Assembly (NCBI GenBank): GCA_012034575.1
Contig: JAAUPF010000055.1
Location: 1-36,424, forward strand
DNA: 36,424 nucleotides
Source: Richelia sp. CSU_2_1
Lineage (GTDB): Bacteria; Cyanobacteriota; Cyanobacteriia; Cyanobacteriales; Microcoleaceae
Direction: 5' to 3'
How positions within the stretch are numbered: position 1 is the first letter of the stretch; every line of letters begins with the position of its first letter. The notes beneath the pieces are model-generated. The model was given only the letters and a program-made list of their open reading frames with translations. It was not told the origin of the DNA and did no database searches. The position numbers and the translations under genes were made by a program. This document shows, piece after piece, positions 249 through 36,424 of this stretch.

Positions 249-1190
249 TTAAATCGTGGGAATATGTGCCGCAATATAAAGCATTTTGCAGTGCGAAATA
301 CGGCTAAATTTTCTCCGATCGCAAATTCCGGATCTCTTCGATATCTCTTCGATACTCAGTCCCGTTGTTTGACCGATAGTTTCGTCATCAAGGCGATCGA
401 GTAACTCTCTCGCCACCGCCTGCATTGCTTCTTTGCGACCTTCTTCTCGACCCTGTTCCAGACCTTGTTCTAGACCTTCTCGATTAGCTTTGATTATAAC
501 TCCTTGTTGGTCGTAAATAAACTGTTCTTGTCTTTCGAGGGCTTCTAATTCGTCAGGGTTTAAATTAACTTGATTGGCTATGTCAAAGGCTTGATGGATC
601 TCTGGCACAACATCCATTGTTTGCGGTACTTGTGTCAGCATATTAGCATATTTCATGAAATAAATCCATTTATCGGTCAGGGTTTCTATTTGTGACAATT
701 CTTTGGTGAATTTGGGAAGTTCGACGAACACTAACTCAATGTTATTGTCAGTATATTCAATATTGGTTGTTGTTTCTTTGTAAACAAATCGAGAAATTAG
801 CCGATCGCTATTTTTAAACATCTCGAAATCAGTAATCGTCAGTGCAATTACAGGTTTCAGCATTCGGTAGCCTTGTCCTTTCTGTAATTGAGAGGCATAA
901 GTTTTGGCAGCGTTGTACAAAACTCTCTTCCCGAAAGACTCGACATTTAATACCTGCATTTCAATAATCACCAGCGTTCCGTCAATCAGTTGGGCTTTGA
1001 CATCTAAAGAAGAGTCTTTTAAGCCTGCTATTTTGGGCGGTAAATTAGGATCGATGATTTCTAAGTCTGCAATGGTAGGATTGCCCTCGTAAATCGTGGC
1101 GTTGAGAAAGCTGATGAGAATGCCTTTGCTATCTCGGGAAGCAAAGATTTTTTTGAAGGCGTAATCGGTTTTGGGGTTGATGAATGTCAT
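249..1190 (-). CDS. Rpn family PD-(D/E)XK nuclease / putative transposase, C-terminus altered by an 11-bp duplication
   Basis: 313-aa protein beginning MTFINPKTDYAFKKIF, the standard start of Rpn (recombination-promoting nuclease, PDDEXK_2) proteins. The nuclease core is visible as D63 followed by E77-x-Q79. The C-terminal third has the family's charged EQGREEGRKEA segment. Known family members cut DNA and promote RecA-independent recombination; the exact role here is inferred. The last 25 or so residues do not fit the family. Nucleotides 332-342 and 343-353 are identical 11-mers (atctcttcgat). Removing one copy gives the usual ending IEEIRNLRSEKI with a stop at 304-306 (291 aa). So the present tail is a frameshift product. 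The gene lies downstream of purL on the same strand, separated by a hairpin, and is probably expressed separately. Confidence 0.85.
   Translation of the reverse strand: MTFINPKTDYAFKKIFASRDSKGILISFLNATIYEGNPTIADLEIIDPNLPPKIAGLKDSSLDVKAQLIDGTLVIIEMQVLNVESFGKRVLYNAAKTYASQLQKGQGYRMLKPVIALTITDFEMFKNSDRLISRFVYKETTTNIEYTDNNIELVFVELPKFTKELSQIETLTDKWIYFMKYANMLTQVPQTMDVVPEIHQAFDIANQVNLNPDELEALERQEQFIYDQQGVIIKANREGLEQGLEQGREEGRKEAMQAVARELLDRLDDETIGQTTGLSIEEISKRSGICDRRKFSRISHCKMLYIAAHIPTI
332..353. repeat. perfect 11-bp tandem duplication inside the Rpn gene
   Basis: The 11-mer atctcttcgat occurs twice back to back. Because 11 is not a multiple of three, it shifts the reading frame near the 3' end of the nuclease gene and replaces its normal C-terminus. 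Confidence 0.9.
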
Positions 1191-1295: not shown

Positions 1296-2546
1296 TCAGA
1301 CAGATGCAATCCGACGTTCGATCGCATTATAGAATCGATCGCCCATATCGCCCATCCCCACATCGATTAGCACTTCACTGTCACTATTAACAATCTTTAA
1401 AGGCGAGTCAGTACCTCCAACAGAACCGATTTTTTGCCACAATTTCGGCAAATATTCTTGCAGGTAAGCTTCCCAAACTTCTCGATGTTTGGGCGCGACG
1501 GAAACAATAATGCAGTTCCCCATTTCGCCAAACAAAATTTCATCCCAGCGGCCGACATTTTGCGAATTAAAATTGAGTTGAATTTCCGCACCTAGTTGAG
1601 CATCAATGCAGCATTCTGCAAGGGCGATCGCAATTCCACCTTCGGCACAATCGTGGGCGGAACATACCCAACCTTGGCGAATGCCATCGCGACAAACTGC
1701 TTGCACTTTCCTTTCCAATTCAAAATTGATAATTGGCGGTTTTCCCGCTACAATTCCGTGAATTGCTGCTAAATATTCCGAACCCCCGAGAGTAGTAAAA
1801 GCAAGCTTTGGATTTTCTGTTTTCAGTTCCGACTGGCTGGATTGAAAAAAGGTTAATTCGGGGTTATCGGGATTTTCGGCTGGTGTTCCACCACCGATTC
1901 CCAACACATAAATTAAATCGCCTTTCTTGAGCCAACCTTGACCGCAAATCTTCGTTAAATCTGGAATCAATCCTACCATTCCAATTACCGGAGTTGGATA
2001 AATCGGTTCGGGATTGCCATCAGAATCTATGGTTTCATTGTACAGAGAAACATTGCCGCCAGTCACGGGTGTTTTCAACTCCCGACAAGCATCAGCAATT
2101 CCCCGACAAGCTGATGCTAACTGCCAGTATCCTACAGGTTTTTCGGGACTGCCAAAATTGAGATTGTCCGTAACAGCTAAAGGTTCGGCACCCACACAAG
2201 TTAAGTTTCTCGCTGCTTCGGCTACGACGGCTTTTGCACCTTCGTAAGGGTCGAGATAAACGTAGCGGGAATTGCAATCAACTGTCGCTGCAACTCCGGG
2301 AATAACCCCCCCCGGCCAGGGCGGGCACGGGGGCACCGCCCCTACAAGGGGGGGAGAAAGTTCGGGAGTTTCTCTTCCTTGTGCCTTCTTAAATAGAGGA
2401 ATTACTTCTTCTTCCTGTTTACTTTGGGAAGCTTGAGGAACAGCATCTTCTCCCTCTTGAAGCCCCCCCTTAGCAAGGGGGGGGTTGGGGGGGGTTTTTT
2501 TGACACGGTTCCAGCGGGCGCAATCGAACAACCGCAGCATCAGCAC
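1296..2546 (-). CDS. purL: PurL C-terminal part (FGAM synthase), separate reading frame
   Basis: C-terminal portion of phosphoribosylformylglycinamidine synthase II, which makes FGAM from FGAR, ATP and ammonia delivered by PurQ/PurS in purine synthesis. From [13 protein letters not shown] onward the sequence is typical cyanobacterial PurL, including [15 protein letters not shown] and [13 protein letters not shown], and it ends normally. The first 80 or so residues are not PurL: they are translated repeat DNA (NPPLAKGG and [13 protein letters not shown]). The frame is offset by one base from the N-terminal part, so a single polypeptide needs one base fewer or a +1 shift. Joined, the protein would be 869 aa against about 780 for the family, the excess matching the insertion. 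The frame opens at GTG 2546. A better start is ATG 2540, with GGAGG 5 nt upstream, which could allow a separate C-terminal chain. Confidence 0.85.
2298..2505. repeat. two-part repeat insertion in purL
   Basis: About 208 bp (boundaries approximate) separate the conserved PurL segments [13 protein letters not shown] and [13 protein letters not shown]. The insert contains two elements also found between genes. One is ccagggcgggcacgggggca plus ccgcccctac, matched in inverse orientation near 35220-35262. The other is a C7-TTAGCAA-G8 palindrome followed by TT, G8 and T7, matched at 19855-19878 and 32803-32827. The homopolymer runs (7-8 bases) are where the two PurL frames part. Confidence 0.8.
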
Positions 2547-3906
2547 CTCCCGGCAAAACTACAGTATTATTTTGCACTTGATGGTCGTATTGGCGGTAAA
2601 CCCAGCGTTTAGATGCGATCGAGGGCGTGTCTAAAAGCTGCAATAAAATCTCGTTCCAAGTTTGCAAATTGCCGTTAATTTCAATGCCTGCAACGGTAGC
2701 TTCCGGCAGCAAATCTGCCGTCCATGCTGCTGCTTTTTTAGCATATTCTGGTGGATCTGCCAACAGTTCTCGATGGTAAATTGGCGTGTTATCTGCTAAA
2801 GCAGTGGCGGGAATTTCTGCTGCGATTTCGCCTTTGAAAAGAATGCGGACGATCGGCTCTTCTATCACTTTACCCGCAACGACAGCGTGCAATTCCCAGC
2901 GGTGAAAAATATCAATTAATTCCTGTTCTCGCCCTTTCTCGGCAACAAATAACATCCGTTCTTGGGATTCCGAAAGCAGGTATTCGTAGGGAATCATGCC
3001 GCTTTCGCGCGCGGGAACTTTGTCTAGATCGAATTCAATGCCGACTCCACCTTTAGCCGCCATTTCTGATGTCGAACAGGTAATTCCTGCGGCACCCATG
3101 TCTTGGGCGGCGACGACTGCACCAGTTTTAAATGCCTCCAAACAAGCCTCAACTAATGACTTTTCTAAAAACGGATCTCCTACTTGCACTGCGGGTCGAT
3201 CGTCCATAGATTTATCGGTCAATTCTGAGCTAGCAAAACTCGCGCCGCCCATGCCATCTCTGCCAGTAGTTGAACCGACATAAAGCACCGGATTTCCGAT
3301 TCCCGCAGCGCCGGATTTAACTATTTCGGGAGTTTCCATTAAACCCAAGGCCATGACATTAACTAAAGGGTTGCCGGAATAGGCAGGATCGAAGTAAACT
3401 TCGCCACCAACTGTAGGTACCCCAATGCAATTACCATAGTGGGAAATTCCCGAGATTACTCCTTTAAATAACCGCTGAGTTTTGGTATCATCTAAGTTGC
3501 CAAAACGCAGGGAATTTAAAAGTGCGATCGGGCGTGCGCCCATTGTAAATATATCGCGCAGAATGCCCCCTACTCCAGTTGCTGCACCTTGAAAAGGTTC
3601 GACTGCTGAAGGGTGATTGTGAGATTCAATTTTAAAAGCTAATTGCAGCCCTTCGCCCAAATCTACAACGCCGGCATTTTCTCCAGGTCCGACGAGAATG
3701 CGATCGCCCTCTGTGGGAAACTGTTTTAATAGCGGTCGCGAATTTTTGTAACAGCAGTGTTCGCTCCACATGACCCCAAACATTCCCAATTCTGCTTTGT
3801 TGGGATGGCGGTTGAGGCGGCGCACTATGTCTTCGTATTCTTCGGGCTTAATGCCTTCGGAGGCAATTTCTTCAGGGGAAAATGGGGATTCGGTGATGAC
3901 TGACAT
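2470..3906 (-). CDS. purL: PurL N-terminal part (FGAM synthase), ends in repeat insertion
   Basis: 478-aa ORF with the N-terminal AIRS-type domains of FGAM synthase II. Recognisable blocks are [29 protein letters not shown] near the start, the [24 protein letters not shown] nucleotide-binding segment around residues 91-115, and the SESQERMLF segment around 313. The native frame runs to about RLRPLEP and then enters the inserted repeat, giving [11 protein letters not shown] and a stop at 2470-2472 inside the palindrome. The C-terminal catalytic half continues in another frame. No second purL is visible in the window, and purine synthesis is normally essential. So the product is probably made by frame correction, by two chains, or the sequence has a one-base error in the G/C runs. 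Confidence 0.9.
2538..2551 (-). promoter_or_regulatory. internal Shine-Dalgarno and ATG inside purL
   Basis: Minus strand reads GGGAGGTGCTGATG: GGAGG, a 5-nt spacer, then ATG at 2540-2538. This ATG is in the frame of the PurL C-terminal part. The bases also encode Pro-Gly-Gly-Ala-Asp of the N-terminal part, so the site may be a coincidence of conserved codons. Even so, it could serve for translation of the downstream half. Confidence 0.4.
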
Positions 3907-7597: not shown

Positions 7598-7795
7598 ATG
7601 AAGATTAAGCTGGCGATCGAATTTGACCCCGCTGCGAGTGTCAACCAATCGATCGAAGAAAACTACGATCTTATCGAACGGATTGCTCAAACTCAGAAGA
7701 TCGAACAATCTTTTGCGGAACTTCACCGCTTTCTCGAAGAATTAGAACACGAAGTAAGATCCGAACTCCACCGCTCTAAAACAGTCGATAGTTGA
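7598..7795 (+). CDS. small ORF, 65 aa, unknown, ends in heptamer array
   Basis: Starts MKIKLAIEFDPAASV and continues as a charged, probably helical protein (EENYDLIERIAQTQKIEQSF, then ELEHEVRSEL). The frame is open further upstream to 7376, but that part overlaps the preceding ORF and reads poorly. So ATG 7598 is preferred. The last residues (TVDS) and the stop are read from the GTTGATA heptamer array. The radical-SAM gene ends in the same four residues for the same reason. Function unknown. Confidence 0.4.
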   Translation: MKIKLAIEFDPAASVNQSIEENYDLIERIAQTQKIEQSFAELHRFLEELEHEVRSELHRSKTVDS

Positions 7796-7846
7796 GAGTT
7801 GAGAGTTGATAGTTGAGAGTTGATAGTTGACAGTTGACAGTTGACA
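7784..7846. repeat. heptamer array, nine GTTGANA units
   Basis: Nine consecutive 7-bp units (gtcgata, gttgaga, gttgata, gttgaca variants). It overlaps the 3' end of the 65-aa ORF and provides its stop. TTTTGAG-type heptamers continue to about 7965. Confidence 0.9.
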
Positions 7847-8050
7847 GTTGTTCGGGAGTTCTTAGTTTTGAGTTGTAGTGCGAGCGTCCCCGCTCGCGAT
7901 CGATTGAGTTTTGAATTGAAGAAAAGTTTTGAGTTTCTCGGGAGTGCGTGAGTTTTGAGTTTTGAGTTGACTTGCATGACAGTTGACTATCAATCGCTGT
8001 CAATAGCCAACTGTCAACTGCGCGGACTGCGGTCTTCCATTGTCTAATGA

Positions 8051-11145: not shown

Positions 11146-11322
11146 AGTTTTAAGTTTTGAGTTTTGAGTTTTGAGTTTTGAATGAAGAACTGTCTTTAAC
11201 TCAAAACATATTTGCCCCAATCTGAAGAAAGCCCCCGATCGGCTCAAAATTCAAAACTTATTACCAATTACCAATTCTCAATTCCCAACTATCAACTGTC
11301 AACTGTCAACTGTCAACTATCA
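11146..11322. repeat. heptamer-rich gap: TTTTGAG, AATTACC and CAACTGT units
   Basis: Between cysE and the convergent flavoprotein gene lie TTTTGAG units (about 11146-11181), then accaatt-type units (11260-11285), then caactgt-type units (11286-11322). The last group reaches the 3' end of the flavoprotein gene. No gene is seen here. Confidence 0.85.
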
Positions 11323-11940
11323 AGGATTGACCGATCGCACCGACCAATTTCCTTGCCCGTCGCGCAAATAAAGCGACCTGTTCTGCGGTTGGCCCCGCAA
11401 TTCCAAAAAATCCACTTGTTCCGGTTCTAGCAGCAGCAAGCAAAAGTTATCCAGCGGCGCGATCGAGTCTGGCGCGGGCTGTTGAAAAACGCTCGCTGCT
11501 GCTTTATTTTCCCCCGGTTGAGGCCAAGCAAACTGCGATCGGGCTGCCTCAGAAATCTCCTGCCAAGCTATTTGCCTCGCTTGTTGCAATGCGGGATCTG
11601 AATCGCCCGCATTCACTAAATTTAGCCTTCCAGCAATCCGAAATTGTTCCCGAGTTTTGGGGAAATACCAGCAAATTTCCCCCCAAGGATAGAGATCGAT
11701 CTCTTGTACTTTTTGACTGCGAAGATCTGTAATAAACTTTAGTTGGTTGGTATTTTCCACAAAACCCCGAAATACTACTGTACGGTTAGCAGGCCGCCCG
11801 CTAGCGCGAACTGTTGCTAGTTGCAAGTAGCGGGCATAAACCAGACTGCGGTTGCGGTGGAGAGAGCCGGCTAAGAGCGATCGCCAAGGTGCTAAAGATA
11901 GTTGAGAGTTTATAGTTGAGAGTTTATAGTTATCAGTCAT
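11320..11940 (-). CDS. PPOX-type FMN-dependent flavoprotein (pyridoxamine 5'-phosphate oxidase-like)
   Basis: 206-aa protein of the cyanobacterial/plant pyridoxamine-phosphate-oxidase-like group. Family marks are LAPWRSLLAGSLHRNRSLVYARYLQLATV at the start, GRPANRTVVFRGF for FMN binding, the central YPWGEICWYFPKTREQFRIAG, and the C-terminal EQVDFLELRGQPQNRSLYLRDG. Its substrate is not established; PLP salvage is a possibility. The first 15 residues (MTDNYKLSTINSQLS) are translated from heptamer repeats. The native protein most likely starts just before LAPWRS, so either the start was replaced by repeats or a non-ATG start there is used. Confidence 0.87.
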   Translation of the reverse strand: MTDNYKLSTINSQLSLAPWRSLLAGSLHRNRSLVYARYLQLATVRASGRPANRTVVFRGFVENTNQLKFITDLRSQKVQEIDLYPWGEICWYFPKTREQFRIAGRLNLVNAGDSDPALQQARQIAWQEISEAARSQFAWPQPGENKAAASVFQQPAPDSIAPLDNFCLLLLEPEQVDFLELRGQPQNRSLYLRDGQGNWSVRSVNP

Positions 11941-18508: not shown

Positions 18509-19002
18509 TGCGATCGGAGGTTTGCGATCGGATTTCGCAAATAGGAAAACTTGTACTTGATATAGTTATCGAAACTACTTCTCATGTCAATTCATAAAAT
18601 TCATAACTTAAAGTCATAAACTTCATATTTGTAATAAGTAAGTCGGCGTGAATATTTATCTTTGGCGTCAGCTAGGAGTCAGGAGACAGGAGTCAAGAGG
18701 GTTTGAGTGCGAGCTATATTTCGTTACCTAGTTTTGTTTATTTGCGCCTTTCTACTTAAGTTATTTTAAGAAGTATGCTCGCGATCGAACTTAATTTAGA
18801 GTTTTTTTGTCCAGCAGAGTGCGGTTGACAATTGACCGTCATTGCCAGCACAATATTCAAATAGCCTCACCGCCAACTATGACCGGACATCACCAATCCA
18901 TCATCGACCAGTTCGCCCGTCAGGCAATTCCATTCTCTAAAGTGCGCGTCTAAAGCCCAGTCTCAAAGTTGCAAAAATACTAATAACTAATAACTAATAA
19001 AT
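18509..19002. other. long intergenic region with repeats and a gene relic
   Basis: AT-rich DNA between divergent TPR and radical-SAM genes. It holds a caggagacaggagtcaag-type direct repeat near 18676-18695, the methyltransferase-like relic at 18879-18953, and ctaataa heptamers at about 18981-18999 right before the radical-SAM ATG. No other gene is seen. Confidence 0.55.
18879..18953 (+). pseudogene. possible N-terminal relic of a SAM methyltransferase
   Basis: A 24-aa ORF reading MTGHHQSIIDQFARQAIPFS. The pattern SIIDQF-x-RQA-x-PF is how many class I methyltransferases of the UbiE-like group begin. The rest of the gene is absent. Short, so uncertain. Confidence 0.35.
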
Positions 19003-20460
19003 ATGAGCGAATTATCCACCAGTCCCGCCTTAATTACCACAGTAATACCCGACAGCATCGCCGCCGAGATGGGATTTGAACCGGGAGATGCGATCGTTGC
19101 CGTTAACGGTCAAAAACCCCGCGATTTAATCGACTATCAATTTCTGTGCGCCGACGAATTTCTGGAACTCGAAGTATTAGATGCTAAAGGCAAAACCCAC
19201 AAGTTAGAAATAGAAAAAGAGTATGACGAAGATTTAGGATTGGAATTTGAGACAGCTCTTTTTGACGGGTTAATTCAGTGCAACAATCGCTGCCCGTTTT
19301 GCTTTATCGACCAACAACCTCCGGGAAAGCGCGAAACTCTTTATCTCAAAGATGATGATTATCGACTCAGTTTCCTTTACGGTAGCTATCTAACTCTGAC
19401 AAATTTGTCGCAGCGGGAATGGGAGAGAATCGAACAAATGCGACTTTCTCCCCTCTACGTTTCCGTACACGCTACCGAACCGGAAGTGCGAATTCGACTG
19501 TTGAAAAATTCCCGTGCCGGTCAGATTTTAGAACAAATTAAATGGTTTCAAGAACGCCGCTTGCAAATTCACGCTCAAGTTGTGGTTTGTCCGGGGATTA
19601 ATGACGGCGAACATTTAGAACGCACTCTGTTGGATTTGGCAAAGTTTCATACTGGAAATATCCCGGCTGTGGCTTCGGTGGCTGTGGTGCCCGTCGGTTT
19701 AACTCGCTTTCGCCCTGCTGAAGATGAATTGATTGCGGTAACGCCGGAAAAAGCGCGGGAAGTTATCGCGCAAGTGCGGCAAATTCAAGCAGTTTTGAGT
19801 CAGGGGAAAAGCGGGAAAAAGGCGAAGCAAAAAAGTTTAAAATCTACCCCCCCCAGCCCCCCCTTACTAAGGGGGGGAGAAGATTTAGTAGTAGATTTAG
19901 CAGGTTTAAATGTTGGAAAGTCGGGCTGTATTTGGCTGGCTGATGAGTGGTTTTTAATTGCAGGCGAGGAGTTGCCACAGGCTGAGGATTATGCAGATTA
20001 CCCGCAAATTGGCAATGGTGTGGGTTCGATCCGGCAGTTTATCCAACAGTTTGAAACGGCTTTTGAGAAAACGAAAATTGCAAAAGTTAACCCGCCGCGA
20101 AAACTAATTTGGGTGGTGGGAAATGCTGTCGAAAAAGCTTTTGACCCCATAGTGCGCCAACTAAATCAAATTCCCGGCTTAGAAGTTAATATGGTAGCTC
20201 TGTGCAGCAAGTATTGGGGGCAGCAAATTACTGTCACCGGTTTGCTTACCGGACAAGATTTGGCTTCGGCTTTGCAGGGCAGGGATTTGGGAGACGGCAT
20301 CTTGTTGCCTTCGGTAATGCTAAAACAGGGGGAACCGCGTTTTTTGGACGACATGACTGTTGCCGAACTCGCTGCTTTCCTGAAAACGGAGATTTTTCCA
20401 GTTAATGGAGTTGAGGAACTAATCTCAAGGGCGATCGGTCTGGGAACGGTTGACAGTTGA
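19003..20460 (+). CDS. DUF512 radical-SAM protein, cyanobacterial type, with in-frame repeat insertion
   Basis: 485-aa protein of the cyanobacterial Fe-S oxidoreductase family with DUF512. Order: PDZ-like N-terminal domain (residues 1-75, AAEMGFEPGDAIVAVNGQKP); radical-SAM-like core with the C-x3-C-x2-C cluster site CNNRCPFC near residue 92; then the DUF512 domain containing VVPVGLTRFR and ending LPSVMLKQGEPRFLDD. The reaction is unknown. Two oddities. First, residues about 272-295 (KSLKSTPPSPPLLRGGED) are translated repeat DNA inserted in frame before VVDLAGLN. Second, the last residues TVDS and the stop come from a GTTGACA heptamer array. The ATG follows ctaataa heptamers, so no SD is present. 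Confidence 0.9.
   Translation: MSELSTSPALITTVIPDSIAAEMGFEPGDAIVAVNGQKPRDLIDYQFLCADEFLELEVLDAKGKTHKLEIEKEYDEDLGLEFETALFDGLIQCNNRCPFCFIDQQPPGKRETLYLKDDDYRLSFLYGSYLTLTNLSQREWERIEQMRLSPLYVSVHATEPEVRIRLLKNSRAGQILEQIKWFQERRLQIHAQVVVCPGINDGEHLERTLLDLAKFHTGNIPAVASVAVVPVGLTRFRPAEDELIAVTPEKAREVIAQVRQIQAVLSQGKSGKKAKQKSLKSTPPSPPLLRGGEDLVVDLAGLNVGKSGCIWLADEWFLIAGEELPQAEDYADYPQIGNGVGSIRQFIQQFETAFEKTKIAKVNPPRKLIWVVGNAVEKAFDPIVRQLNQIPGLEVNMVALCSKYWGQQITVTGLLTGQDLASALQGRDLGDGILLPSVMLKQGEPRFLDDMTVAELAAFLKTEIFPVNGVEELISRAIGLGTVDS
19847..19878. repeat. C-rich palindromic repeat inside the radical-SAM gene
   Basis: C8-AG-C7 followed by TTACTAA and G7, the same element as in purL (2463-2494) and between genes at 32803-32827. 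It keeps the reading frame here and adds the peptide PPSPPLLRGG. Confidence 0.85.
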
Positions 20461-20490
20461 CAGTTGACAGTTGACAGTTGACAGTTGATA
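20449..20490. repeat. heptamer array, six GTTGACA units
   Basis: Five GTTGACA units and one GTTGATA. It begins inside the last codons of the radical-SAM gene and gives its TGA stop. More cagttgac units follow at 20521-20532. The rest of the gap to 20765 holds no gene that I recognise. Confidence 0.9.
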
Positions 20491-20765
20491 GTCAATCCTT
20501 CGACTTCGATCTGGACAGCGCAGTTGACAGTTGATAATAGCATACAGGTTGACGGTTGAGAGTGAGGTTTTGAAGAGGGAGATTTAAACTCTGTTTTAAA
20601 AACAATTGCGTCGGTTTGAGAACGGCGGCGGCTAATAACCCTTGATGTTTGGTAAGATTGGTAAGCTGTAAATCTCGATCGAGCTTTCAACAGGTTACGA
20701 GTGACAACTTGAGACCGAATCGTGTTCTAGAATTGTCTCTGGAATTGCAGGTTAATTAAGAAATT

Positions 20766-22620: not shown

Positions 22621-22700
22621 CAGTTGACAGTTGACAGTTGACAGTTGACAGTTGACAGTTGACAGTTGACAGTTGGTAAGTGGTAATTGGTCATTGGGAA
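22621..22700. repeat. heptamer array, seven GTTGACA units
   Basis: Seven perfect GTTGACA units (22623-22671) start 4 bp after the TolC stop and change into ggtaatt-type units, followed by a pyrimidine-rich stretch to about 22750. Confidence 0.9.
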
Positions 22701-22814
22701 TTCTCCCCCTCTCCCCCTCTTCCACTCTCTCCCTCTCCTCTTCTTTCTTAGAGATCGACATATTAGTTAATATTCTGTAATAGACCTCTATGTCAAAAGT
22801 GTAAGGAACGGGCA

Positions 22815-32799: not shown

Positions 32800-32912
32800 A
32801 TCCCCCCCCAGCCCCCCTTAGTAAGGGGGGAGCAAGAGTGTTAAAGTCTCGCTTCTTAAGGGCGACAATAATCTTAAAGTCCCCCTTCTTAAGGGGAATT
32901 TAGGGGGATCGA
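32800..32912. repeat. C-rich palindromic repeats (CCCCCCTTAGTAAGGGGGG family)
   Basis: Two neighbouring elements: C8-AG-C6-TTAGTAA-G6 at 32803-32827, and cccccttcttaaggggaatt then tagggggatcga at about 32880-32910. This is the family inserted in purL and the radical-SAM gene. They fill the gap ahead of the oligopeptidase gene; nothing else was recognised in 32610-32967. Confidence 0.8.
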
Positions 32913-35109: not shown

Positions 35110-35338
35110 ACAGATCTCGATCCCCCTAAATCCGCGCCACTTGCTTCATTTGGGGGGACCCCAAGATCGCAGTGGCTTCCCTCCCGGGGGACTTAAAGAG
35201 CGATTCCGGTCCCCCCCTTCTGTAGGGGTGGTGCCCCCGTGCCCACCCTGGCTAGGGGGGATCGAATTCTATGCAACCTCATAAAAAATTGGTATAACAC
35301 TTTTGACCAAAGTTCCCCTTAAAAAAAAGGGGGACTTT
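35110..35338. repeat. cluster of C/G-rich repeats after the oligopeptidase
   Basis: Contains tccccctaaatccgcgcc, a ggtcccccccttctgtaggg block followed by tggtgcccccgtgcccaccc (the inverse of the element in purL), and finally agttccccttaaaaaaaagg ggga. It lies between convergent genes and ends at the nucleoside hydrolase stop. No gene. Confidence 0.8.
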
Positions 35339-36281: not shown

Positions 36282-36328
36282 TTCGATCGCCCCGACATAA
36301 TTTCTATAAAATACAATATATCTTTTTG

Positions 36329-36424
36329 GGTAATGGGTAATGGGTAATGGGGTAATGGGTAATGGGTAATGGGTAATGGGTAATGGGTAATGGGTAATGG
36401 GGTAATGGGTAATGGGGTAATGGG
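36329..36424. repeat. GGGTAAT heptamer array at the window edge
   Basis: At least 12 units of gggtaat, several with an extra G (ggggtaat), running to the end of the window and perhaps beyond. The longest array in the window. Confidence 0.9.

Follow-up and report, generated by a model that had tools for sequence, protein, structure and literature searches.

Dispersed palindromic repeats that appear to have enlarged a coding linker in purL across a cyanobacterial genus

The purL gene of Richelia sp. CSU_2_1 is divided between two reading frames by DNA that contains two short dispersed repeats, R1 and R2. Our best reading, to which we assign a probability of about 0.75, is that this DNA is a coding linker grown from the two repeats and that the break in the frame is an error of sequence. 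R1 itself appears, from the frames in which its copies lie, to be largely a protein-coding repeat and not an intergenic one. The case is made by a linker that is in frame across the genus, by in-frame copies of R1 in named protein families, by filled and unfilled sites in ligA, by the predicted disorder of the PurL linker and by the conservation of R1 units at synonymous sites.

The window – the whole stretch of DNA analyzed, 36,424 nt of contig JAAUPF010000055.1 – comes from an assembly coded here as G000 (7.27 Mb in 370 contigs, 86% complete, 6.6% contamination). On its minus strand purL begins at 3906, can be followed to the peptide VVRLR (2518) and resumes at GVAATVDCN (2297) in another frame, as the sequence-only reading had recognized. 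The two open frames (2470–3906 and 1296–2546, both minus strand) share 77 nt, which they read differently, and NCBIfam assigns both pieces to PurL (Table 1); TIGR01736 (PurL, small form) is matched by the N-terminal piece with 630.1 bits against a cut-off of 525.75, and by the C-terminal piece with 242.7 bits over the remaining profile. The N-terminal frame reaches its stop inside the first R1 unit. The runs to which the frame change had been ascribed are present (G8 at 2477–2484 and at 2487–2494, T7 at 2495–2501), and the length of the linker leaves a remainder of one on division by three, so that the uninterrupted frame found in 21 congeners is absent from the window. A search of the G000 assembly for a second purL gave none; since that assembly is 86% complete, this is no proof of absence. 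The nearest named PurL belongs to Tychonema/Microcoleus. Adjoining purL is an ORF (249–1190, minus strand) whose product, judged from its sequence, we take to be a protein of the Rpn/PD-(D/E)XK nuclease family.

Table 1. Positions of the purL pieces, the linker and the repeat copies in the window.
Feature	Position	Strand	Details
PurL N-terminal part	2518..3906	-	463 codons to VVRLR; NCBIfam PRK01213 profile 2-433/723, 719.8 bits
PurL C-terminal part	1296..2297	-	from GVAATVDCN; NCBIfam PRK01213 profile 437-721/723, 292.8 bits
Expanded interdomain linker	2298..2517	-	220 nt, mod 3 = 1; out of frame in G000
R1 unit, first	2463..2494	-	C8-AA-C8-TTGCTAA-G7 on coding strand
Second R1, outer arms around R2	2306..2354		C8 at 2306-2313, G7 at 2348-2354
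R2 core	2321..2345	+	between the arms of the second R1; 128 genomic places
R1 in frame in TIGR03279 radical SAM protein	19859..19875	+	ORF 18994-20457; 736.1 bits, cut-off 574.7
R1 copy outside open frames	32813..32829	+	R1 pattern search
R2-containing copy	35210..35260	-	inverted relative to 2307-2357, 84% complementary

Both repeats are abundant. R1 (CCCCCTTRSYAAGGGGG, up to one mismatch) occurs at 72 places in the G000 genome and R2 (GCGGGCACGGGGGCACCGCCCCTAC, up to three mismatches) at 128, the reversed-pattern control giving 0 in each case, which bears out the claim that the DNA between the two parts of purL is built from dispersed repeats. R1 measures some 30–50 bp and consists of a C-rich arm, a TTRNYAA center and a G-rich arm; its extent is the stretch common to aligned contexts, with boundaries judged by eye. 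Of 120 genomes sampled from the order, 58 contain exact R1 (the reversed control matched one site in one genome), and the five members of the genus in that sample hold 12–88 exact copies each. One congener R1 unit is predicted to form a 9-bp stem with a 3-nt loop (-18 kcal/mol, z -1.9 relative to shuffled sequences). A second unit, folded with its 3' flank, is no stabler than its shuffles (z 0.2) and R2 gives z -1.2 to -1.3; stability beyond that expected from composition is therefore not established. Rfam, searched at gathering thresholds, has no match in the window. The G000 contigs C121, C192, C279 and C361 end within or near copies of R1, and R1 thus probably fragments the assembly. The window also contains 7-bp tandem arrays (for example of GTTGACA and GGGTAAT) at 7776–7867, 11256–11331, 20449–20502, 22623–22702 and 36327–36424.

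The cassette is not peculiar to the G000 genome: wherever a congener has a complete linker free of gaps, in 21 cases, that linker is expanded. Across 29 genomes of the genus purL is in frame in 21, out of frame in one (G000), gapped in one (the linker of G019 has 100 N inside), split in two by contig ends (G001 and G014) and without a PurL match in four. Weak matches alone came from G005, G021, G022 and G025, even though G021 is 99% complete. The 21 in-frame linkers comprise 58–174 codons, most with R1-type units; that of G002 carries a 36-bp tandem array in frame, those of G007 and G024 are without R1, and in the G012/G027 group the 3' R1 unit has decayed. At the position of the second R1 of the window several congeners without R2 have an unbroken R1, and R2 nested in R1 recurs in the linkers of G006 and G008, making three genomes with the window. 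With 21 of 22 ungapped genus linkers in frame and the window as the exception, tolerated insertion, one of the explanations first offered, is strongly supported. The expectation that the gene exceeds its family in length was likewise correct: 12 intact congener PurLs have 830–949 codons, compared with mostly 761–814 in the non-expanded cyanobacterial PurLs listed (start codons were assigned by script).

Outside the genus the linker is mostly 4–5 codons in the Bacillus-type PurLs compared, 4–17 codons in the best 30 order-level loci and mostly 4–41 codons in named cyanobacteria, a Tychonema record excepted; in the PurL of Thermus (3viu) the two aligned parts abut. R1-like units are found in the PurL linker of G080, a member of the same family as the genus. 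Other repeated peptides occupy the linkers of G113 (GGQDAHPTR units), G106 (two further types) and Nostoc locus L010 (an LSEVERSRS type). In a model of the G008 PurL (mean pLDDT 83.1, pTM 0.86) the linker is predicted to be disordered, residues 470–534 having a pLDDT below 50; the prediction covers PurL, a LigA model from a 13-row alignment (mean pLDDT 38.3) having been left unused.

The location of R1 in other genes leads to the same reading. A copy was counted as inside a gene if the ORF around it had 150 aa or more and extended 40 aa or more beyond the repeat in both directions. In G027, a genome of one contig, 32 of the 43 exact R1 copies (RNY center) lie inside ORFs and 11 do not; random 17-mers from the same genome lie inside ORFs in 689 of 1000 cases when drawn from a stretch of 100 kb and in 682 of 960 when drawn near R1 loci. 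The repeats had been called intergenic, and here the sequence-only reading was mistaken: in G027 the frequency of R1 in open frames is about that of random sequence. It is because the genus linkers are in frame, and because these 32 copies include ones in murE, ligA, aroE, cysS, glyS and valS, that R1 would seem to be a protein-coding repeat. Of these copies one belongs to dnaX, whose frame breaks at the R1 or beside it, and another (L301) is in a doubtful 167-aa frame; the rest are counted as unsplit within the 40-aa margin. Counting against our best reading, R1 is less often genic in some genomes: 18 of 52 copies examined in G000 (a number that includes the split hisC), 3 of 16 in G145 and 1 of 4 in G067. 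The remaining samples from outside the genus gave 11 of 21 in G089 and 7 of 11 in G113, and 15 of the 33 R2 copies examined in G000 were inside ORFs. The G000 samples represent 52 of 72 R1 places and 33 of 128 R2 places. Among these, 11 R1 and 6 R2 copies were provisionally classed as edge cases; at L163 the flanking frames belong to different families, and L167 is chlD. Among 26 exact R1 copies outside frames in G000, nine sit at the ends of contigs or stretches.

Many of the host genes belong to well-defined families. In G000, 13 of 20 scanned repeat-bearing ORFs (a part of those counted as inside) exceed curated NCBIfam cut-offs and seven are without a match over cut-off. The families are TIGR03279, MenC, AroE, QueG, LigA, TlyA, PrmC, MurE and valine–pyruvate aminotransferase, together with CysS, RsmE, LarC and LL-diaminopimelate aminotransferase, which carry R2. 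In G027, 10 of 20 scanned ORFs exceed the cut-off (E up to 1e-60), the other ten being without a match at the thresholds used, and the host families are GlyS, PrmC, MurE, CysS, AroE, ThrB, ValS, DnaX, MenD and MenC. In AroE, MurE and PrmC the distance of R1 from the start is similar in the two genomes. R1 is read in all three frames. In the larC-like gene of G000 (L194) the R2 copy lies just beyond the end of the LarC1 match; in other bacteria LarC is a product of frameshifting.

Two further genes show a single site in different states. In LigA the R1 site lies a few residues before the KxDG motif. The site is unfilled in G025, G026 and G015 (10–12 codons) and has 32–126 codons, mostly R1-type, in the other in-frame genomes, that of G008 being of different sequence. 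At a second LigA site G019 has VGAVPPCPP, the R2 peptide, and G009 a sequence that nearly matches it. HisC has 9–110 codons in frame at one site. ligA is in frame in 20 of 22 resolved genomes and hisC in 21 of 23, so that over purL, ligA and hisC the frame is kept in 62 of the 67 resolved combinations of gene and genome.

R1 units are conserved at synonymous sites some 3–9 times better than the genes that host them. Differences at fourfold sites number 14 of 361 in the R1 units of ligA as against 3288 of 9721 in the flanks (10 loci), 63 of 702 as against 3856 of 12126 in hisC (13 loci) and 53 of 388 as against 4740 of 12497 in purL (9 linkers, 36 pairs). These counts concern units that keep the motif (10 of 20 in ligA, 13 of 21 in hisC, 9 of 23 linkers in purL), exclude unit pairs of unequal length and are drawn from pairs that are not independent. 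Restricted to Pro and Gly codons, the figures are 8 of 217 versus 880 of 2369 for ligA and 24 of 468 versus 892 of 2883 for hisC. In the flanks GGG is preferred in neither gene, and CCC in hisC only. Within the units the arms are nearly fixed and the loop triplet is variable.

This conservation could stem from turnover between copies, from the youth of the units or from selection on the hairpin. The last of these – direct selection on the nucleic acid, for example on a DNA or mRNA hairpin, in place of turnover or young age – concerns the conservation alone and is compatible with a coding repeat. Synonymous conservation in all three genes, a predicted hairpin and a loop that varies between near-fixed arms are what it would produce. 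Several ligA and hisC alleles, however, are without the unit and the arms have decayed in one purL subgroup, so that no R1 unit is indispensable; moreover, one of the two R1 units folded was no stabler than its shuffles. We therefore consider selection on the hairpin an unlikely cause, if a serious candidate.

As for the frame break, the suggestion of a sequencing error in the runs is favored. At least four housekeeping genes are split in G000. Besides purL they are hisC, broken in the 43 nt of its repeat linker; chlD, whose two frames (profile positions 1–397 and 397–608) part at an R1/R2 pair or no more than about 60 nt from it; and dnaX (L146:1054–3191). The dnaX break is some 500 nt away from the R1 of that gene and not at a long run, which points to indel errors in the G000 assembly. 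Elsewhere, splits are found at R1 in ligA of G003 (6 contigs), in both ligA and hisC of G028 (1 contig) and, at or next to R1, in the G027 dnaX already mentioned. When the 67 resolved cases are divided, two of the three in G000 are split, three of the nine in genomes of at most 10 contigs and none of the other 55. This distribution would fit homopolymer errors that depend on the sequencing method, for which contig number is a proxy. Since at least four G000 housekeeping genes are split and breaks elsewhere cluster in few-contig assemblies, the broken purL frame most likely reflects an indel error that the assembled sequence contains at the homopolymer runs of the repeat, and not a dead gene.

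Comparisons between whole stretches of close genomes found few splits. Among 75 ORFs of G027 compared with G028 (100 kb), the one split was that of ligA at R1, in G028; the reciprocal comparison of 81 ORFs gave two, in overlapping ORFs (122 and 127 aa) that align about 1 kb apart. Between G018 and G017 one of 31 ORFs was split (a 246-aa ORF), and none of 32 in the reverse direction. In the window purL alone was split relative to its relatives, a weak test with 5–10 ORFs per relative.

If the sequences of G027, G028 and G003 are right, then frames really are lost, or recoded, at R1, and these splits stand as a counterweight to our best reading. A real break in the window would mean that a slippage mutation in the runs either disabled purL or divided it into two polypeptides that assemble. 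The sequence as given, the R1 splits in these three genomes (1, 1 and 6 contigs) and the failure to find a second purL in G000 agree with this, but dN/dS gives no clear sign of relaxed selection in either half of the gene: values for the C half are 0.157–0.214 against seven congeners and 0.110–0.208 in four intact pairs, and for the N half 0.046–0.085 against congeners and 0.036–0.057 in intact pairs. Furthermore, hisC, chlD and dnaX are split in the same assembly, and a phototroph lacking all four genes is implausible. A real break is accordingly improbable.

Programmed or tolerated recoding, by which transcriptional slippage or ribosomal frameshifting would restore some full-length PurL and other R1-split proteins, finds support in the runs of 7–8 at R1, in the repeated splitting of essential genes at R1 in more than one genome and in the dnaX of G027, which is split between its conserved N-terminal region and its C-terminal region. 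Elsewhere, the gamma/tau recoding of dnaX falls between just such regions. Against it, one frame suffices in most congeners (purL 21 of 22, ligA 20 of 22, hisC 21 of 23), and dnaX matches in one frame over profile positions 3–626 or more in 13 genomes, counted irrespective of R1. Slippage of the transcript in the homopolymers, which the sequence-only reading had proposed, is disfavored despite the T7 run, for the accessible text of a study of E. coli and Buchnera places 100% of transcription insertions in homopolymer runs in A/T runs (PMC5574713). By analogy, slippage in the G/C runs of purL is unlikely, and we rate recoding as a whole as very improbable. It is hardly credible that we are dealing with an ordinary disordered linker of low complexity, rich in Pro and Gly, whose likeness to repeats comes from composition. 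The predicted disorder of the linker and its variability in other cyanobacteria would suit this, but a 17-mer is found 72 times and a 25-mer 128 times, with reversed controls at 0, the DNA of R1 cores differs very little from gene to gene or genome to genome, and R2 lies inside R1 in three genomes.

We return to the reading of a repeat-grown coding linker. The cassette would join two folded parts of PurL as an expanded linker, which grew, probably in the ancestor of the genus, from the short palindromic R1 and from R2, the latter landing also inside R1. R1 would spread through the genome and be kept where it is in frame in loops or linkers, adding PPxPP-L/Y-x-K/R/Q-GG peptides to housekeeping enzymes; its arrays would later gain and lose length by multiples of three bases. 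We infer that R1 has at some time been, or still is, mobile or recombinogenic and owes its uniformity to turnover between copies. A bolder version, which we put forward tentatively and at somewhat less than even odds, makes R1 an active coding DNA element: one that inserts in genes as readily as elsewhere, is retained when in frame and stays uniform in its DNA for longer than synonymous sites do, so that a mobile or self-homogenizing hairpin would have its main reservoir in housekeeping genes.

Among known systems, the closest in behavior are the Rickettsia palindromic elements (RPE), described in the accessible part of a 2024 review as palindromes of about 150 bp that lie in frame in unrelated housekeeping genes and add peptide to their products (PMC10969869). 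R1 is likewise a palindrome (predicted 9-bp stem, 3-nt loop), in frame in unrelated and functionally diverse genes, a likeness drawn from description and not from compared sequences. It differs from RPE as described there in its size (about 30–50 bp) and its host, a free-living cyanobacterium, and we therefore do not file it as an RPE; it differs also in being read in all three frames, often in arrays and nested with R2. REP and REPIN sequences, given as high-copy short palindromes of about 20–40 bp in the part of the source available (PMC3733652), resemble R1 in length, symmetry and copy number. REPs, however, are named for their extragenic location, and 32 of 43 exact R1 copies in G027 are inside ORFs, close to the random rate. 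Within cyanobacteria, the small dispersed repeats (SDR) of Nostoc are reported, by Elhai et al. in 2008, to be 21–27 nt long, to form hairpins and nested copies and to lie largely in tandem heptamers or minitransposons. As very short dispersed repeats with a hairpin and nesting they would be similar to R1, which is set apart from this description by lying, in G027, mainly inside coding frames. The PurL linker peptides of L058, L012 and L015 look derived from heptamers or short tandem repeats, which we take to be the cyanobacterial STRRs, and these peptides, from which the judgment was made, are unrelated to those of R1. No account of in-frame palindromic repeats in cyanobacterial housekeeping genes was found in the open-access literature, searched by titles and the beginnings of abstracts.

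What is known, then, is the in-frame palindrome in housekeeping genes of Rickettsia; what is new is a protein-coding palindrome of free-living cyanobacteria, of which purL is one of many hosts. The review cited above, in its accessible part, holds that the same kind of in-frame insertion is conceivable in other prokaryotes (PMC10969869), and here in-frame palindromes occur at genome scale in a free-living cyanobacterial genus with large genomes. Because filled and unfilled alleles exist among the 29 genomes, the origin, spread, protein cost and turnover of the repeat are directly testable. There is also a practical consequence: where coding repeats are rich in homopolymers, essential genes can come out as false pseudogenes or be cut by contig breaks.

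Larger insertions of another kind are present in two of the host genes. The PurLs of G113 (L322:990–2369), G043, G067, G071, G095, G112, G125 and G128 are longer by a block of several hundred aa, placed at about profile position 143. The 460-aa block of G113, the one among these to which the match applies, matches the N-terminal splicing region of inteins (TIGR01445, 37.2 bits, cut-off 24.5). In dnaX of G001, G007, G008, G011, G012, G021 and G028 a long insertion at about profile position 130, in frames of 884–1138 aa, is probably an intein.
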